Under the pieces are notes generated by a model that was not told the DNA's origin, ran no database searches, and saw only the letters and a list, made by a program, of their open reading frames with translations. Below are positions 1 through 12,531 of a stretch of 61,432 bases of DNA, piece by piece. This DNA comes from Pseudomonadota bacterium (GTDB lineage: Bacteria > Pseudomonadota > Gammaproteobacteria > Acidiferrobacterales > UBA6901). The stretch spans positions 1 to 61,432 of the forward strand of contig DAHXOO010000010.1 of NCBI GenBank assembly GCA_027364845.1. Direction: 5' to 3'. The stretch's first letter is position 1, and each line of letters begins with the position of its first letter. Made by a program: the position numbers and the translations under genes.

Positions 1-475
1 GTACAATAGGACAACTTATTGTTTGACGGTGCCTTAATACGCCCGGAAACAAGCGCTGAAGATAATTTGACAATATGGTATCAGCGAACTCAGCCGACAT
101 TCGCGGCGATGCCGAACGCCTATTAAGGGTACTTTGGAAACAATAGCTGCACGATAAATTACAGGCGTAGGTCAGGATCAGATATAAGGTCCCTCTTTTG
201 TGGCGATTGCTTGGCGCTTGATTCCGATCTATCAAACCCGCGACCTGGCTCCGAAATGACAGAAACTCATCGTCCAATGAGTTCTCGGTGATATGGCCTC
301 TTTCAAGAGCGTGATGAATTTCTGCGGCCGAGAGGAAGGAAAAATCGTTATTCTCTACCCAGCGCGCAACATCATTCGTGGAGGCCAGATCAATACATAG
401 GCTAGCGCCGTTATAGATAAGGGAAGTCCCGCCACCGATTTCGACATGATTAAAATAGTTGCTGAGGCGCAACAT
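1..475 (-). CDS. Radical SAM enzyme, N-terminal part (cut by window edge)
   Basis: Minus-strand frame open from an ATG at 475 to base 2, 158 codons, then cut by the window edge. Residues 105-112 read CNLSCSYC, the CxxxCxxC motif that binds the radical SAM 4Fe-4S cluster, preceded by a hydrophobic LILTYA strand, the usual start of the SAM barrel. About 100 residues precede the motif (SNYFNHVEI..., LIYNGAS...), as in SPASM-type peptide maturases, where this part contacts the peptide leader. AGGAGG lies 2 bases before the ATG and 5 before the next codon, TTG at 472, so either may start translation; an in-frame TGA at 491-493 blocks an earlier start. The GGEP motif and any SPASM domain would lie outside the window. 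Family membership is clear; the substrate is inferred from the neighbouring small ORF. Confidence 0.8.
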   Translation of the reverse strand, partial: MLRLSNYFNHVEIGGGTSLIYNGASLCIDLASTNDVARWVENNDFSFLSAAEIHHALERGHITENSLDDEFLSFRSQVAGLIDRNQAPSNRHKRGTLYLILTYACNLSCSYCFQSTLNRRSASPRMSAEFADTILSNYLQRLFPGVLRHRQTISCPIV

Positions 476-662
476 CCCCTCCTGATTTATTCACGGCTCA
501 CAGACGTGGAGGAAAAGGTAATTATTCGGGACGACTCGATCTTGGCACACACCGCCGAAGACATGCATCCCAAATAACTAGCATCTCAGTTCCTCTTGAT
601 GCTACTAACCCTAGTTGATCGCTACACGTAAGGCTGCACGGACACGGCGGCGGATGCCGCCA
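476..662. other. Spacer between small peptide gene and radical SAM gene
   Basis: This stretch holds a GC-rich hairpin at 646-661. It also holds a 25-codon minus-strand ORF (ATG at 568, TGA at 493-491) in the same frame as the radical SAM gene but separated from it by that stop. The 25-codon ORF has two cysteines and no convincing ribosome site. It may be leader, decay product or noise. No other gene is supported. Confidence 0.4.
646..661 (-). terminator. GC-rich intercistronic hairpin, possible attenuator
   Basis: Read on the minus strand, GGCGGC-ATCC-GCCGCC forms a perfect 6-bp stem with a 4-base loop directly after the stop of the 74-codon ORF. No T-run follows, so it is not a standard intrinsic terminator. 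A partial terminator or mRNA-protecting hairpin between a peptide gene and its maturase is a common arrangement; that role is inferred here. Confidence 0.4.
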
Positions 663-887
663 TCATCCCCGAACCCCGCAATCGCACGGCGGATCGTCAA
701 CACAGCTGCCATGCTCGTCGTATGAACCGATGAGAGTGCCCAATGAGACTCCCGCACCATCATTCGGGCTCACACTATGCTTATCAGCAGTAAAATTAAT
801 CGGTACGATGCGTGCAGTTGGGATGGTGGTGGTGATAACGGCAGGGTGGGTCGAGATCTGATCAACCGATGACTTATTCATGTCCAT
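663..887 (-). CDS. Small Cys-tailed peptide, candidate RiPP precursor
   Basis: 74 codons (72 from the second ATG at 881). AGGAGA lies 1 base before the first ATG and 7 before the second, so translation probably starts at 881. The product has no signal peptide or membrane segment. Residues 1-50 are rich in Thr, Ser, Val and Ile. The tail reads GSCVDDPPCDCGVRG with C62, C68 and C70 interleaved with D64, D65 and D69. A leader-like front, a short Cys/Asp-rich end and a radical SAM gene 188 bases downstream on the same strand fit a precursor of a thioether-type or other radical SAM-modified peptide. I recognise no family; this is inference from layout. It could also be an unrelated small protein. 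Confidence 0.55.
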   Translation of the reverse strand: MDMNKSSVDQISTHPAVITTTIPTARIVPINFTADKHSVSPNDGAGVSLGTLIGSYDEHGSCVDDPPCDCGVRG

Positions 888-970
888 TTCTCCTAAATAA
901 TACGGGATAACGCAACATGCCGCGACAATTCAACGTCGTTTCTAAAATCATGTAATGCTGAAATTTATAA

Positions 971-1004
971 TGCATATATATGATTATACTGCATAAATAT
1001 GATT
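971..1004. repeat. Two direct repeats overlapping the peptide-gene promoter
   Basis: TGCATATATATGATT (971-985) and TGCATAAATATGATT (990-1004) differ at one base and are spaced 19 bases start to start, nearly two helical turns. They cover the -10 and the spacer of the minus-strand promoter and touch its -35. Such spacing suits a regulator binding one face of DNA, but no regulator gene is visible in the window. Confidence 0.5.
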
Positions 1005-1009
1005 GTCAA
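983..1009 (-). promoter_or_regulatory. Sigma-70-like promoter for the small peptide gene
   Basis: On the minus strand TTGACA (1009-1004) and TATAAT (988-983) are both perfect consensus hexamers with a 15-base spacer, two shorter than ideal. Transcription would start near 975, leaving a leader of roughly 90 bases before the 74-codon ORF. The short spacer may make the promoter depend on an activator or on supercoiling. Confidence 0.5.
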
Positions 1010-1611
1010 TACTTATTATAAGGGTAATATTTTTATAGGTACCCGGTCCGGCATCCGGTTCCATCACCTTGGGCACGCCGACCTCGAAGCCGCTGCCCCT
1101 TTAGTCTTTCCGGGATTCCCGGTTACGGCTCGAGTCGAGAGATGCTGTGCCGCCTGGATTCGACGCTCGACCTTCAGGTTATGGGTGAACCGCCTGCCCA
1201 CAGCATTGCAAACCGCAACACACGCATAACGCTGTGTCACTCATTCGAACGATCTGAGAAATGGACTATGATCGTTGCATCTTCACCGGCGGCGTTGCCG
1301 GGGCAAGTCCAGGAACCGGCTGATACCGATGGTTCGCGCCATTCAGGGCATATTGTCTTGGCTGGCCGCAGTCACGGGCGCCAGGCGCGGCCACTTTCGC
1401 CGTACTGCGAGATCGGCGACAGCATGAATGCAACAGTATCGTGCACTGCCATACACGGGATCGCTCCGTGCTGACGGGGAAACCAGGAAACTCGGGACGG
1501 ATCATCCGCTAACGCTGCCTGGCCGCCATCGGCGTGCACCGCTCGCGGGCTCGAGGCCCAGTTTGCGCCATGGACGCCTCTTCGGCAGCTCTGCCACCGC
1601 GAGTCGCTGCT
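1010..1611. other. Intergenic stretch without a supported gene
   Basis: Base composition changes from AT-rich to GC-rich near 1040. Several short open frames exist on both strands, but none has a ribosome site, a recognisable domain or codon use like its neighbours. It may hold an eroded gene or mobile-element remnant at the edge of the accessory segment. I see no tRNA or inverted-repeat ends. Confidence 0.4.
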
Positions 1612-5521: not shown

Positions 5522-5935
5522 TTATTCCGCAGCTACGGCTGTGACCAGCCAGCCGCGGCCACGCACATTCTTCAGTACGACTCGGAACTCGACAGCGCCG
5601 TTGATCTTGCCGCCGAGCCGTGTGACCCGCACAGTCACCATCCGGTCCGACCGTCCCCGCAGACGGACAGAATCGATGGTAAAGTCTTGTTTTTCGCCCT
5701 GGCGCTGGCGCGTCCGCAAATAGCTGAGCGCAACTTCAGTCGACAGTCCATGAACAACCGAAGTGGGGTCCTGACCAGCTGCCACGTCGGCGAGACTGCG
5801 CAGCTGCTCGGCATTTCCAGGGTCAACGACCAGAGTCCTAATGAATTGGGTCGCATGGCTTTCCGGAGCGTTGCGAAAATAGCCGCATCCGCTGAGCAAC
5901 AGCAGACAGATCATGGATGTGGTTGCCCTGACCAA
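5522..5935 (-). CDS. Putative lipoprotein of unknown function
   Basis: 137 residues. The first 17 form a lipoprotein signal peptide ending in LLSGC, with the lipid-modified Cys at about 17, followed by GYFRNAP. The mature part has an alpha-helical stretch (FIRTLVVDPGNAEQLRSLADVA) and then beta-type segments (RSDRMVTVRVTRLGG, VEFRVVLKNVRGRGWLVTAVAAE) that resemble a small NTF2-like or lumazine-type fold. No family recognised. It sits 29 bases upstream of the membrane gene on the same strand and may belong to that transcript. Confidence 0.7.
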   Translation of the reverse strand: MVRATTSMICLLLLSGCGYFRNAPESHATQFIRTLVVDPGNAEQLRSLADVAAGQDPTSVVHGLSTEVALSYLRTRQRQGEKQDFTIDSVRLRGRSDRMVTVRVTRLGGKINGAVEFRVVLKNVRGRGWLVTAVAAE

Positions 5936-6059
5936 GGCTTGACCCCCTCGAGCACATGCCTAAACTTAAATCATAACACGCGCAGGGCGGCAATCGGGTA
6001 CCTGGCGGCCGACATGTGTCCAGATAAGGTCCCGGGCGCCAATCTGGTAAACTGGGTGC

Positions 6060-7250
6060 ATGACAGCCAGGTTCATCGAATCGTACGCGGGTCTCGTCGA
6101 TGTGTGCGAGCATTTGCGCCAGCAGGACTGGATTGCGCTCGACACCGAGTTTTTGCGTGAGCGCACATATTACGCGAAGCTCTGCCTGGTTCAGATCGGA
6201 ACTCCGGAAGTTATCGCCTGCATCGACCCCCTCGCCATCGAGGATCTGACGCCGCTGCTGAATCTGATCCGTGATCAGCGGGTACTCAAAGTGATGCACT
6301 CAGCACGCCAGGACATGGAGGTCTTTCACGACCTTCTGCGAACCCATTGCAGCGATGCGGGCGAATCGACGAGCGGCAATTTGCTAGTTCCGGGCCCGGT
6401 GTTCGATACCCAGGTTGCGGCGGCCTATCTTGGCTACGAAGAGCAGATCGGCTACGCCGCTCTGGTAAAGGCGATTACCGGCACGGTCCTGGACAAGTCA
6501 CACACACGCACCGACTGGTCGGCGCGGCCATTGAGCCCCGAGCAATTGCGCTATGCCGAAGATGACGTGCGCTACCTTCGCGATATTTATCTCGACGTGA
6601 CCAGGGCATTGGAGGCAGCCGGTCGCAGCCACTGGCCGCAACGGGATTTTGCGCGTTTGAGCGATCCACGTCTGTACGAAGTCGGCCCGGACGAGGCGTG
6701 GCAGAAAATCAAGAATGGACAGCGGCTCGATCCGCACGCACGCCGGATCCTGCGGGAGTTGGCTGCCTGGCGTGAGCGCGCCGCCCGATCAAGCGATCTT
6801 CCGCGAAGCTGGGTCATGCGCGATTCCACGCTGCTTGATTTCGCTCGCAGCCGGCCGCGCAACATTGAGGATCTTTGTGCGATATCCGGCATGACTGATC
6901 GCACTGTCCGCAAGTGGGGAAGCGAAATTCTTGCGGCAATTGCCGCAGCAGAAAGCACCGATGCGCTGGATTTGCTTGCACCGCGGCAGGTGTTGAATAC
7001 TGTCGAAACCGAGCTTTACCGGCGCATTGCGGCGGAGGTGGACAAGGTTGCCCGCGAACTGCGGATCAGCCCGATGCTGCTGGGAACGCGCCGTGAGATA
7101 CAGCGTTTGGTGCTGGGCGACCGGGACGTATCGCTGCTGACTGGATGGCGCCGAGAGCTGGTTGGGGAAAGCTTGCTGGCCCTGCTGGCGCCGTGCTGCG
7201 CAGCCGGCGGGACGCCTTTGGAGACTTCCGAGTCCGACGTTGCGCGCTGA
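6060..7250 (+). CDS. rnd: Ribonuclease D
   Basis: 396-residue 3'-5' exoribonuclease that trims tRNA and other structured RNA precursors. The DEDD exonuclease domain starts with WIALDTEFLRE (D28 and E30 as metal ligands), continues with HSARQDMEVF and FDTQVAAAYLGYE, and ends with Exo III, LRYAEDDVRYL (Tyr/Asp). The following region includes the HRDC module (LRELAAWRERAARSSDLPRSWVMRDSTLL). Length is close to the usual 375. The gene stands alone after a divergent lipoprotein gene and before an unknown membrane-anchored protein. Confidence 0.95.
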   Translation: MTARFIESYAGLVDVCEHLRQQDWIALDTEFLRERTYYAKLCLVQIGTPEVIACIDPLAIEDLTPLLNLIRDQRVLKVMHSARQDMEVFHDLLRTHCSDAGESTSGNLLVPGPVFDTQVAAAYLGYEEQIGYAALVKAITGTVLDKSHTRTDWSARPLSPEQLRYAEDDVRYLRDIYLDVTRALEAAGRSHWPQRDFARLSDPRLYEVGPDEAWQKIKNGQRLDPHARRILRELAAWRERAARSSDLPRSWVMRDSTLLDFARSRPRNIEDLCAISGMTDRTVRKWGSEILAAIAAAESTDALDLLAPRQVLNTVETELYRRIAAEVDKVARELRISPMLLGTRREIQRLVLGDRDVSLLTGWRRELVGESLLALLAPCCAAGGTPLETSESDVAR

Positions 7251-7319
7251 ATACTGCTTCACGCCCGCGCGGCTCTGTTTGATCAGGAGTTTGACGACTG
7301 CTGAAGTAATAGGTGTCCG

Positions 7320-8217: not shown

Positions 8218-9369
8218 TCAGGTCTTCGGCAACAACACGTACAAACGCCCGGGTTGCTTCATGCGACCGGCAAGCTGCCCGGCGTCCCGGCCCTGTCCGA
8301 AAAATACATCGGCCCTGACCGGACCTTTGATGGCGCCTCCGGTGTCCTGCGCCAGCATCAGGCGTCGGTAGGGCTCTTTGTCGGGCAGGGTAGTATCCAG
8401 CCACACCGGCACACCGAGCGGAATATAGGACGGGTCAACCGCAATGCTGCCTTGCGGCGTGAGCGCAATCTGCAGCGCACCGACAGGCCCGTTCGTCGAC
8501 GCGTCGTGCAGCCGGAAGAAAACATAGCTCGGGTTGCTGTTCAGGACGGATTCCGCCTCGTCCGGGTGGTCGTGAAGCCATTGGCTTATGGTCCGAAGTG
8601 TGACCTCTTCGGGTTTGAGGGCGCCCATCCGCACCAGGCGCTGGCCGATGGCAACGTATGGATATCCGTTCTGGTCCGCATAGCTGACCGCAACCATGCT
8701 GCCATCTGGCAGGCGCACCAGGCCGGAACCCTGGATCTGCAGCATGAACAGCGCCACCGCGTCATCCACCCACAGCAGCTCCTGCCCTCTAAGCGGGTCT
8801 GCGGGATCGGTGATCTGACCGCGGCTGTAGTAAGGCACAACCCGATCCCCGTCGAGTCGCCCACGTACCAGTTTGCCCTGAAGTTCCGGATACAGAGCCC
8901 CGAGATCGACCCTGACGAGGTTGTCGGGACGGCGGTACAACGGGTACCTGAAGCGGGCGGTGCGAGTGAAGCTGCCGTCGAGGATCGGTTCGTAATACCC
9001 GGTGATCAGCCCGTGGCGGTGACCGCCAGACCCGATCATTTCGTGTGCGCGAAAATGCTGCTCGAAGAATCGCCGCGCCTGGACATCATCCGGCACCGCC
9101 GGCAGAGCCGTCGCCGCCTGACAGATCGACGCCCACGCTGCATCCTGGGCGGAAAGTCTTGTGCAGTCCCGCATAAATGCAGGCCACGCCTGGGATTGCC
9201 CGCCGGCTGCCCAACCTGGGAGGGAGGACCAGGCTACCTGGCGCCCGATTCCGGCGGGTCGTGGAACAAGCCATGTACACGCGGACAGCACCGCAGCGGC
9301 GCAGACCATGATGATTGCGCACTTCACACTACGGCTCACTCTTTCGGTATTGCTCTCGACGTTACCCAT
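8218..9369 (-). CDS. mltA: Membrane-bound lytic murein transglycosylase A
   Basis: 383 residues. It cleaves the MurNAc-GlcNAc bond of peptidoglycan from the periplasmic face of the outer membrane. The lipobox is VLSAC with Cys31. MltA motifs follow: GLITGYYEPILDGS, LLWVDDAVALFMLQIQGSGLV, VSYADQNGYPY, SYVFFR. The C-terminal 3D domain contains AQDTGGAIKGPVRADVFFG, whose aspartates are the catalytic ones in the family. The first 15 residues before the hydrophobic core are longer than usual, so a later start is possible. The start overlaps the end of a small upstream ORF by 8 bases. Confidence 0.93.
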   Translation of the reverse strand: MGNVESNTERVSRSVKCAIIMVCAAAVLSACTWLVPRPAGIGRQVAWSSLPGWAAGGQSQAWPAFMRDCTRLSAQDAAWASICQAATALPAVPDDVQARRFFEQHFRAHEMIGSGGHRHGLITGYYEPILDGSFTRTARFRYPLYRRPDNLVRVDLGALYPELQGKLVRGRLDGDRVVPYYSRGQITDPADPLRGQELLWVDDAVALFMLQIQGSGLVRLPDGSMVAVSYADQNGYPYVAIGQRLVRMGALKPEEVTLRTISQWLHDHPDEAESVLNSNPSYVFFRLHDASTNGPVGALQIALTPQGSIAVDPSYIPLGVPVWLDTTLPDKEPYRRLMLAQDTGGAIKGPVRADVFFGQGRDAGQLAGRMKQPGRLYVLLPKT

Positions 9370-9707: not shown

Positions 9708-10190
9708 ATGCAGATCGCAAAAGGTACGGTAGTAAGCATTAACTACACCCTCACCGATGATGCACACAACATCATTGACAGCTCGGCTGGCGGTGAGCCA
9801 CTTGCCTATATCCACGGTACAGACAATATCATCCCCGGCCTGGAGAAAGCGCTGGCGGGAAAATCCACCGGTGATCGTCTGGAAGTATCGGTGCCACCCC
9901 AGGAAGCGTACGGCCTGCGCGACGAGGCGCTTGCCCAGGTTATTCCGCGCGACCGTTTCGAATCAGTGCAGGATATTGAGATCGGAATGCAGTTCCAGAC
10001 TCCCACCTCGGATGGCGTCAGTATCGTGACAGTCACCAGCGTAGACAAGGAAAACATCACGGTCGACGCCAACCACCCGCTTGCAGGCATGATGCTGCAT
10101 TTCAGCGTCGAGGTTATCGAGGTCCGGGCCGCAACGCCGGAGGAGATGGGCCATGGGCACATCCACAGTCCCGGCGGGCACCATCATTGA
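9708..10190 (+). CDS. slyD: FKBP-type peptidyl-prolyl isomerase, SlyD type
   Basis: 160-residue cytoplasmic prolyl isomerase and chaperone. The FKBP core starts INYTLTDDAHNIIDSS and continues GTDNIIPGLEKALAGKSTGD. The insert-in-flap chaperone domain is the stretch with PPQEAYGLRDEALAQVIPRDRF and ANHPLAGMMLHFSVEVIEV, a SlyD signature. The tail GHGHIHSPGGHHH is a short histidine-rich, metal-binding end, as in SlyD, which delivers nickel to hydrogenase or urease, though much shorter than in E. coli. Convergent with topA, 31 bases away. Confidence 0.92.
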   Translation: MQIAKGTVVSINYTLTDDAHNIIDSSAGGEPLAYIHGTDNIIPGLEKALAGKSTGDRLEVSVPPQEAYGLRDEALAQVIPRDRFESVQDIEIGMQFQTPTSDGVSIVTVTSVDKENITVDANHPLAGMMLHFSVEVIEVRAATPEEMGHGHIHSPGGHHH

Positions 10191-10221: not shown

Positions 10222-12531
10222 TCAGGCCTGTTTAACGTCCCGGTCTTCCTCCGCTCCCGGCACCTCTCCCTCATAGGGCTCGGTGTAACCGCACTCCTTC
10301 TGCGGGCATACTTTCTCTGTTCCGCGCCGCTTGGTCGTCTTAATGGTGAGTATCGGAAATCCGCATTTCGGGCAAGCCTCCGCGATCGGCGGGTTCCAAA
10401 CCGCATATTTGCATTCCGGATAGCGCGCGCAGGAGTAGAAGATCTTGCCATAGCGCGACTTGCGCTTGAGCATCGTGCCCTGCTTGCACTCGGGGCATTG
10501 CACACCCGTGTCGGCCGGTTTCTCCAGCGGCTCCATGTGTTTGCAGTTCGGATAATTGCTGCAGCCGATGAATTTTCCGTAACGGCCGCGCTTGACGACC
10601 AGCGGTGAATTGCATTTCGGGCAACTGCGGCCCTCGACAATTTGCGGTTCGTTGGCCGCGCCCGCCTCGTCATCGACGTTACGCGTATAGTCGCACTCTG
10701 GGTAACCGGTGCATCCGATGAAATAGCCGTTGCGGCCGAGGCGCTTAGAAAGCTGCTTGCCGCATTTCGGGCATTTTTCATCCAGAAGCTCCACACCGGG
10801 CCGTTCGGCGCTCTCCTTTTCCGCTACCTGGCCCTTGAACTCCTCCCAGAAATTCTGCAACAGCGGCTTCCACGCCCGCTCCCCGCGCGATACCGCATCG
10901 AGGTCATCCTCGAGTCGCGCAGTAAAATCGTAGTCGACATATTTCTGGAAGTGCTCGGACAGAAACTTATTCACGACGCGGCCAACATCGGTCGGCTGGA
11001 ATCGACGTTTGTCGAGGGTCACGTACTCGCGCTGCTCGAGTGTAGAGATGATCGTCGCGTAGGTCGAAGGCCGGCCTATGCCATAGGCTTCGAGCGTTTT
11101 GACCAGGCTTGCCTCGGTATAGCGCGGCGGCGGTTCGGTGAAATGCTGCTCCTTGCGGATACCACGCAGGTCCACATATTCGCCTTTCAGCATGACCGGC
11201 AGCAAGGCCTCATCCTCGGTCTTCTTTTCGTCCGTTCCCTCCTGGTATACCGCCATGAACCCCGGCTTGACGACCGTAGATCCGGTCGCCCGTGATATGT
11301 TGCCAGATCCGGCCTCAAGATCCACGGCCACCGTGTCAAGAACAGCGGGTATCATCTGACACGAGATCGTGCGTTTCCAGATCAACTCGTAAAGCTTGTG
11401 CTGATCCGGCGTGAGGTGCTTCTTGACCAGCTCGGGAACGCGCTCGGCCGATGTCGGCCGTATCGCTTCATGCGCCTCCTGCGCATTCTTGGACTTCGTC
11501 TTGTATAGCAGCGGTTCCTCCGGCAGATTGTCATCGCCGTAGCGCTTTGCGATGAGCGCGCGTATCTCGCTCAGTGCCTCACCCGCGAGATTCACCGAGT
11601 CAGTACGCATATAGGTGATGAGGCCGACGGTTTCGCCACCGATGTCGACGCCCTCGTACAACTGTTGGGCGGTACGCATCGTGCGTTGGGCGGTGAAGCC
11701 GAGCTTGCGGGACGCCTCTTGCTGCAGGGTCGAGGTGGTGAAAGGCGGCGATGGATTGCGCCGTTTCTGCTTCTTGTCGACTGCGGTGACGAGGAAGCGG
11801 CCCTGCGCCTGCTTCAGCAACTCGGCCTCCAGTTCCGCTGCCCGATTCTCATCCTCCACAGCGAACTGGTCCAGCTTTGTCCCCTGGAAATAGGTCAGCT
11901 TGGCGACGAAGTTCTGTCCCTTGGTAGTGAGGTCCGATTCGATAGTCCAGTATTCGCGCGTCTTGAAGCGCTCGATCTCTTCTTCACGCTCCACGATCAG
12001 CCTTAGTGCCGGACTCTGCACCCTTCCGGCGGAAAGGCCGCGGCGGATCTTCTTCCACAACAGCGGCGACAGGTTAAACCCGACGAGGTAGTCCAGGGCA
12101 CGGCGCGCCTGCTGTGCATTGATCAGGTTGATCGACAATTCGCGCGGCTCCTGAATCGCTCGCTGTATGGCCTGCTTGGTGATCTCGTAGAATTCCACAC
12201 GATGCACCGGCTTGGCATCGAGCACGCCGCGGTCTTTCAGGATTTCATGGAGATGCCAGGAAATCGCCTCGCCCTCGCGGTCGGGGTCGGTCGCGAGGTA
12301 AAGCGCATCGGCGCTATCCATGGCCTTTACGATCGCATCCAGGTGCTTCCTGTTCTTTTCGATCAGCTGATACTTCAATTCGAAATCGTGTTCGGTGTCG
12401 ACCGCGCCCTTCTTGGGCACGAGATCGCGCACGTGCCCATAGGAGGCAAGCGCAGTGAAATCTTTGCCCAAATACTTGGACATCGTCTTGGCTTTCGCCG
12501 GCGATTCGACAATGATCAGATTCTTAGGCAT
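10222..12531 (-). CDS. topA: DNA topoisomerase I
   Basis: 769-residue type IA topoisomerase that relaxes negative supercoils. The start at ATG 12531 gives MPKNLIIVESPAKAKT, the canonical Toprim beginning. Toprim acidic residues appear in ATDPDREGEAISWHL, and the catalytic tyrosine lies in GLITYMRTDS. The C-terminus carries four zinc-ribbon units with CPKC or CPEC pairs; three have the typical GC.YP.C second half and the last is the divergent CPKCGFPI...CPQKECGY form. Length fits proteobacterial TopA. It follows smg by 150 bases on the same strand. Confidence 0.96.
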   Translation of the reverse strand: MPKNLIIVESPAKAKTMSKYLGKDFTALASYGHVRDLVPKKGAVDTEHDFELKYQLIEKNRKHLDAIVKAMDSADALYLATDPDREGEAISWHLHEILKDRGVLDAKPVHRVEFYEITKQAIQRAIQEPRELSINLINAQQARRALDYLVGFNLSPLLWKKIRRGLSAGRVQSPALRLIVEREEEIERFKTREYWTIESDLTTKGQNFVAKLTYFQGTKLDQFAVEDENRAAELEAELLKQAQGRFLVTAVDKKQKRRNPSPPFTTSTLQQEASRKLGFTAQRTMRTAQQLYEGVDIGGETVGLITYMRTDSVNLAGEALSEIRALIAKRYGDDNLPEEPLLYKTKSKNAQEAHEAIRPTSAERVPELVKKHLTPDQHKLYELIWKRTISCQMIPAVLDTVAVDLEAGSGNISRATGSTVVKPGFMAVYQEGTDEKKTEDEALLPVMLKGEYVDLRGIRKEQHFTEPPPRYTEASLVKTLEAYGIGRPSTYATIISTLEQREYVTLDKRRFQPTDVGRVVNKFLSEHFQKYVDYDFTARLEDDLDAVSRGERAWKPLLQNFWEEFKGQVAEKESAERPGVELLDEKCPKCGKQLSKRLGRNGYFIGCTGYPECDYTRNVDDEAGAANEPQIVEGRSCPKCNSPLVVKRGRYGKFIGCSNYPNCKHMEPLEKPADTGVQCPECKQGTMLKRKSRYGKIFYSCARYPECKYAVWNPPIAEACPKCGFPILTIKTTKRRGTEKVCPQKECGYTEPYEGEVPGAEEDRDVKQA

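Follow-up and report, generated by a model that had tools for sequence, protein, structure and literature searches.

At the left end of the stretch of DNA analysed here (the window, which is the entire contig C11, 61,432 bp, of a draft genome with 184 contigs, 3.15 Mb and a completeness of 96%), we found what is very probably the remnant of a two-gene RiPP locus, in which a Cys-tailed precursor lies beside an RRE-radical SAM-SPASM maturase whose gene has been broken by an ISAzo13-family element. The RRE-like domain in the maturase fragment, the GGEP and SPASM motifs in its relatives and the Cys-tailed peptides encoded adjacent to these enzymes make a RiPP precursor/maturase pair the best reading of the two genes. 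Judged from the sequence, the genome appears to hold the precursor and a truncated, catalytically dead maturase. Elsewhere in the window, ubiX, mpl and dsbA were recognised by eye, a gene content that looks proteobacterial, and no transporter or peptidase belonging to the pair is visible within it.

Features at the left end of the window
Feature	Position	Strand	Basis
ISAzo13-family terminal inverted repeat, transposase-proximal end	1..36	-	36/36 identity to C6:182-217
Native part of the radical SAM maturase	37..475	-	42-46% identity to five relatives over the fragment
CNLSCSYC, radical SAM [4Fe-4S] cluster motif, residues 105-112	140..163	-	identical in 5/5 relatives
RRE-like leader-binding domain (predicted), residues 1-80, three strands and three helices	236..475	-	model of the fragment
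Candidate RiPP precursor, intact	663..881	-	place, size, leader motif and Cys tail as in relatives
Presumed core, Cys-bearing tail SCVDDPPCDCGVRG	666..707	-	sequence
Leader motif IVPINF, pattern I-x-P-[ILV]-N-[LF]	792..809	-	motif comparison
Promoter-like site, TTGACA with TATAAT or AATCAT	980..1009	-	promoter scan

An insertion sequence at the end of the maturase frame

On the minus strand, a frame is open from 475 to 2 and carries CNLSCSYC at 163..140. An earlier note, made from the sequence of the window, had reported both and had read the frame as a radical SAM gene cut by the left edge. Frame and motif are present; what breaks the gene, however, is an ISAzo13-family element, and the end of the contig is formed by its terminus. 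Window bases 1-36 recur once elsewhere in the genome, on contig C6 (182-217), where the match is part of one arm of a 34-nt imperfect inverted repeat. The C6 inverted repeats enclose a transposase with a DDE_Tnp_ISAZ013 domain (PF07592, E 7.7e-139), the combination that marks the ISAzo13 family, and the element on C6 is intact and has both flanks; the window holds its terminus only. The body of the element was assembled only once, and three further sites in the genome are 67-68% relatives. We found nothing unusual in this element, and ISAzo13-family insertion sequences (PF07592) are the source of window bases 1-36. Two toxin-antitoxin-looking gene pairs, PIN-like by eye, adjoin the intact copy (L043, contig C6, 3631-5215).

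The identity between C11 and C6 starts exactly at the boundary of the inverted repeat, which leaves the native maturase gene with 146 codons and one further base before the IS begins. Bases 36 to 1 of the window are the end of the IS and not part of the enzyme gene, though they still lie within the open frame, and the last residues of that frame, LRHRQTISCPIV, are IS-encoded save for the first base of the Leu codon. When the frame is continued into the intact C6 copy it reads RHRQTISCPIVL followed by a stop, so that one more Leu and then TGA lie past the window edge; here we infer that the C11 copy equals the C6 copy past the 36 shared bases. The earlier note had named a break in the frame just outside the window as a result that would count against it, and for a working locus in this genome that is what we found. 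The note had also proposed a leftward search for GGEP and the SPASM cysteines. As the window is the entire contig, only its first 36 bases could be followed elsewhere in the assembly, into the IS; the two motifs were found in relatives of the enzyme. The window copy has the CxxxCxxC cluster motif (as CNLSCSYC), and GGEP and the SPASM cysteines are absent from it, as it enters the IS after codon 146.

With the ISAzo13-family element sitting in the maturase gene after codon 146, the remaining product would consist of the RRE and the CxxxCxxC loop, with neither barrel nor SPASM domain, and the peptide would thus no longer be modifiable by this enzyme. The event may have been either an insertion or an insertion plus a deletion, as the right-hand junction is absent from the assembly: searches for the right end of the IS with a second flank found none (a 33-nt pattern allowing 3 mismatches and a 16-nt pattern allowing 1), and no contig carries a second half of the maturase in searches with NF038107 and the relatives' profile. 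The draft assembly could hide an intact allele. It is conceivable that the maturase is intact in most cells and that the contig end at the IS terminus comes from a minority strain or assembly branch, with the remainder of the gene missing from a 184-contig draft of 96% completeness; the IS body was assembled a single time, on C6, with both flanks, and only one side of the second insertion is visible. We nevertheless regard this as quite improbable, since the maturase sequence passes directly into the inverted repeat at its very first base, so that some reads must have carried the junction, and since the missing part of the gene is on no contig. A maturase gene broken by the IS is still the preferred reading, and it makes this strain a poor choice for seeking the product. 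It also corrects a plausible but misleading reading of the window, in which a frame that seems to run off the contig in fact ends in an IS.

The leader-binding domain and the relatives of the maturase

When we modelled the maturase fragment, residues 1-80 were confident (pLDDT 87-96) and residues 81-146 were poor (pLDDT 53-65), as expected for a barrel that has been cut. The best structural match to residues 1-80 was TigE (Z 7.3, rmsd 2.4, 71 residues), followed by TbiB1 (Z 6.0, rmsd 2.3, 62 residues), McbBCD (Z 5.1, rmsd 2.3, 61 residues), lasso B1 (Z 4.8, rmsd 2.8, 59 residues), the PbtF RRE (Z 4.3, rmsd 2.8, 63 residues) and MccB (Z 4.1, rmsd 5.0, 81 residues), and ThcOx was also among the best matches. 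Every Z is below 8 and each match is weak singly; what persuades us that residues 1-80 are a predicted RRE-type leader-binding domain is agreement in kind, as the best matches are all RiPP leader-binding domains or enzymes that carry one. The suggestion of the earlier note that leader-contact sequence precedes the radical SAM motif is borne out by this fold.

Because the RRE is predicted to be complete and is modelled confidently, and because the peptide ORF and its promoter-like site are intact, the truncated protein might now serve as an RRE on its own and go on binding the peptide, whether on behalf of another enzyme or as a sink. Other RiPP classes often have their RRE as a separate protein (PMC7470986), and the genome has about twenty other radical SAM genes. 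However, no second member of the maturase family was found in the genome, residues 81-146 would be left dangling from such a protein, and no relative was seen with this arrangement, so we consider this role extremely improbable. With or without it, the locus offers a natural case of a maturase reduced to its leader-binding domain next to an intact precursor.

To find relatives of the maturase we scanned one genome per species (84,980 species) with a profile; a single-sequence scan of the genome contigs, unlike the profile scan, recovered no relative. Five close relatives from four phyla were found, in a Nitrospiraceae (L049), a Smithellaceae (L050), a delta-proteobacterial MAG (L051), an Oligoflexia (L052) and a Desulfuromonadaceae (L053) genome, with 42-46% identity across the fragment. 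All five keep CNLSCSYC unchanged and read on with LFGGEPLLP exactly where the window sequence becomes IS. GGEP is thus present in 5/5, and a full SPASM domain is present in 4/5 (the L053 frame stops early). In a tree, the window fragment clusters with the five relatives (support 92/96), on a branch of 0.86 as compared to 0.18-0.29 for the relatives. The best solved relative is CteB (sequence E 9.8e-22; Foldseek E 9.9e-18; by VIA-align Z 27.6, rmsd 3.0, 377 residues). These results agree with the claim that the enzyme is of a peptide-modifying kind. An anSME or a cofactor enzyme was rejected as an alternative: the relatives carry an RRE, are accompanied by a precursor gene and fall far short of the cut-offs for those enzymes.

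Each of the five relatives has an ORF of 63-78 residues adjoining the enzyme, upstream in L052, where the peptide occupies 5606-5839 and the maturase 5930-7309, and downstream in the other four, and by leader motif and Cys tail a small precursor lies beside the enzyme in 5/5 relatives as well as in the window. The small Cys-tailed ORF therefore recurs at homologous loci, as the earlier note had asked of its candidate. More distant relatives of the maturase (L054 and L059) pair with small Cys peptides too, which strengthens the view that the entire branch modifies peptides.

Several observations were made around these more distant and closer loci. In L054, an Elusimicrobia MAG, two near-identical 49-residue Cys-tailed peptides (8900-9049 and 9824-9973) precede the maturase, and in L059 the small Cys peptide has 36 residues. 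Distant maturase relatives with small Cys peptides also occur in L045 and L046, which are Rhodococcus plasmids; a membrane protein that looks M50-like by eye and bears an HExxH-like motif is encoded at the L045, L046 and L059 loci, and L045 has a weak match to an ATP-grasp RiPP maturase. Next to the pair, L053 encodes a protein of ankyrin repeats that ends in a Kunitz/BPTI domain (PF00014; 2747-3769), and beside the pair in L050 is a Cys-rich ORF that is Kunitz-like by eye (11065-11466). Such domains are unusual for bacterial proteins. Further radical SAM/SPASM genes, belonging to the rad_SAM_trio / nif11_3 type, were seen at L049:7092-8246, L050:11456-12553 and L053:4290-6502, and because such extra genes sit within a few kb of the pair in 3/5 relatives, a larger peptide-modification cassette is possible there.

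Closer to the window's own lineage, a search covered 369 genomes of the class; apart from the window itself, the matches (E 1e-14 to 1e-11) were confined to the radical SAM core of other maturases. Among first-pass matches at the class level, L003 was set aside as a SPASM maturase from another branch, and L004 and L005 were set aside as unrelated radical SAM proteins. In the sister species G002, G003 and G004, similarity to the window begins at 1564 or 1693, at dsbA, and left of dsbA no similarity to the window was found in these three genomes apart from one 77-base stretch in G003. Window positions 1-1560 are thus a variable site, and dsbA and the genes to its right are common to the sister species. 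GC content is 47-52% over the locus as compared to 52-64% rightward. By these comparisons the peptide/maturase pair is accessory DNA, and the locus was probably acquired. When we looked for the window peptide in plasmids and for the maturase fragment in phages, neither search gave a match.

The candidate precursor peptide

Upstream of the maturase frame, on the same strand, an ORF of 74 codons (887..663) ends 187 nt before the maturase-frame ATG. The ORF and its ribosome site, AGGAGAAATGGACATG (AGGAG), are as the earlier note described; the site, however, lies only 2 nt before the first ATG and 8 nt before the second ATG (881). Because the spacing to the second ATG is better, the product is probably the 72-residue form that begins MNKSSVDQ... 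and not the 74-residue form from 887; the relatives' peptides start MKKTK or MKNSK. The consensus promoter that the note assigned to the pair has perfect TTGACA and TATAAT hexamers, yet these are 15 nt apart, which is sub-optimal. A promoter scan instead pairs TTGACA with AATCAT at 18 nt (10/12), in a scan that returned 5 sites where 1.6 +/- 1.3 were expected.

In the window peptide, the leader contains RIVPINF, with Ile27, Pro29 and Asn31 as the motif residues, and the tail holds three Cys. In the relatives' peptides, the leader motif is I-x-P-[ILV]-N-L, with the Asn invariant, and the tails, such as ECCGPYAQPC, hold three or four Cys; the CCGP of the relatives is missing from the window core. 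When we scanned stop-to-stop segments of 30-150 residues from 57 loci (931 kb), the leader motif with the three-Cys rule was found in 6/14,635 segments, all at these loci. Because the window peptide had already been seen when this pattern was defined, the background frequency of I-x-P-[VLI]-N is the fairer guide; this motif occurs in 12/14,629 segments, and in 1/14,629 together with three Cys in the last 20 residues. An HMM built from the five relatives' peptides does not recover the window peptide (6.4 bits), and one-to-one hhalign of the window peptide gave P 0.0044 with a low probability. No meaningful NCBIfam model matched the relatives' peptides. The window peptide is likely kin to the relatives' peptides, with a resemblance that appears to be motif-deep only.

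The insignificant HMM score and a core unlike those of the relatives would fit a small ORF that is unrelated to the enzyme or is no gene at all, with its motif and Cys tail arising by chance, and 4.8% of random segments have three Cys within their last 20 residues. We find this very unlikely: the earlier note had singled out the ORF when the motif had yet to be recognised, only 0.08% of background segments contain I-x-P-[VLI]-N, and the size, strand, ribosome site and position beside the maturase match the relatives. Keeping to a precursor/maturase pair, we infer that the peptide was the substrate of the maturase and that the chemistry was Cys-centred. In relatives with an intact pair, the leader would be held by the RRE around I-x-P-x-N, and the C-terminal tail would receive a Cys-centred modification, most likely a thioether crosslink, from the radical SAM core.

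Chemistry and comparison with known systems

The earlier note had favoured crosslinks between the Cys and Asp residues of the tail. The ranthipeptide maturase PapB takes Cys-Xn-Asp as substrate for n = 0-6 and refuses the opposite order, Asp before Cys; in PapA, a conserved leader Asn has been proposed as needed for RRE contact (PMC9413430). The window tail has C-V-D-D and C-D, and the relatives' enzymes resemble PapB (NF047865) as much as any named family, at 108-126 bits, so that the intact ancestral enzyme could have joined Cys to Asp as PapB does. However, these scores fall far short of the PapB cut-off of 340, the relatives' tails show no conservation of acidic residues following Cys, with none in the L052 tail, and PapB refuses the Asp-to-Cys order. 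What the relatives conserve is Cys-Cys-Gly-Pro plus a later Cys. Cys-Asp crosslinking of the tail is therefore unlikely, and some Cys-centred thioether, suggested by the CteB-like architecture, would be the best guess.

Of the known systems, CteB, the SCIFF thioether maturase (PDB 5WGG/5WHY, TIGR03974), is like the relatives in its N-terminal RRE, radical SAM barrel and SPASM domain. In contrast, identity to CteB is 19% in the structural alignment, the relatives score 88-100 bits against a SCIFF cut-off of 425, and the window tail has three Cys where the SCIFF peptide has six. PapB is likewise a radical SAM/SPASM enzyme that acts on precursor Cys, and its model gives the best or near-best NCBIfam score of the relatives; the window fragment, which is partial, scores 18 bits, and Cys-X3-Asp repeats like those of PapB substrates are absent from these peptides. 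CefB (NF038107), the geopeptide maturase (TIGR04280) and the TIGR04463 maturase share the same general architecture and are among the best NCBIfam matches of the fragment and the relatives, but the relatives score 117-140 bits against a CefB cut-off of 600, 97-111 bits against a geopeptide maturase cut-off of 400 and 107-117 bits against a TIGR04463 cut-off of 525, and these peptides do not have a Cys at every fifth residue. TigE (PDB 8VPO), the closest structural match to the RRE-like domain of the fragment, has 16% identity over that domain and gives no evidence for the same product. The search against SPASM families that the earlier note proposed thus returned maturase models, all with scores far below their cut-offs.

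Since the relatives pass no curated NCBIfam cut-off among those tested, the family looks unnamed, and by sequence the ancestral locus looks like a member of an unnamed family of the broad RRE-radical SAM-SPASM RiPP kind. This apparently unnamed precursor/maturase family occurs in four other phyla, and the intact loci L049-L052 are suited to tests of its chemistry. More tentatively, the locus and its five relatives might form an unnamed RiPP class of their own, with a leader I-x-P-x-N and a core that is typically E/D-C-C-G-P...C, in which the maturase makes a crosslink undescribed so far, for example between vicinal Cys, rather than the Cys-Asp thioethers of PapB.
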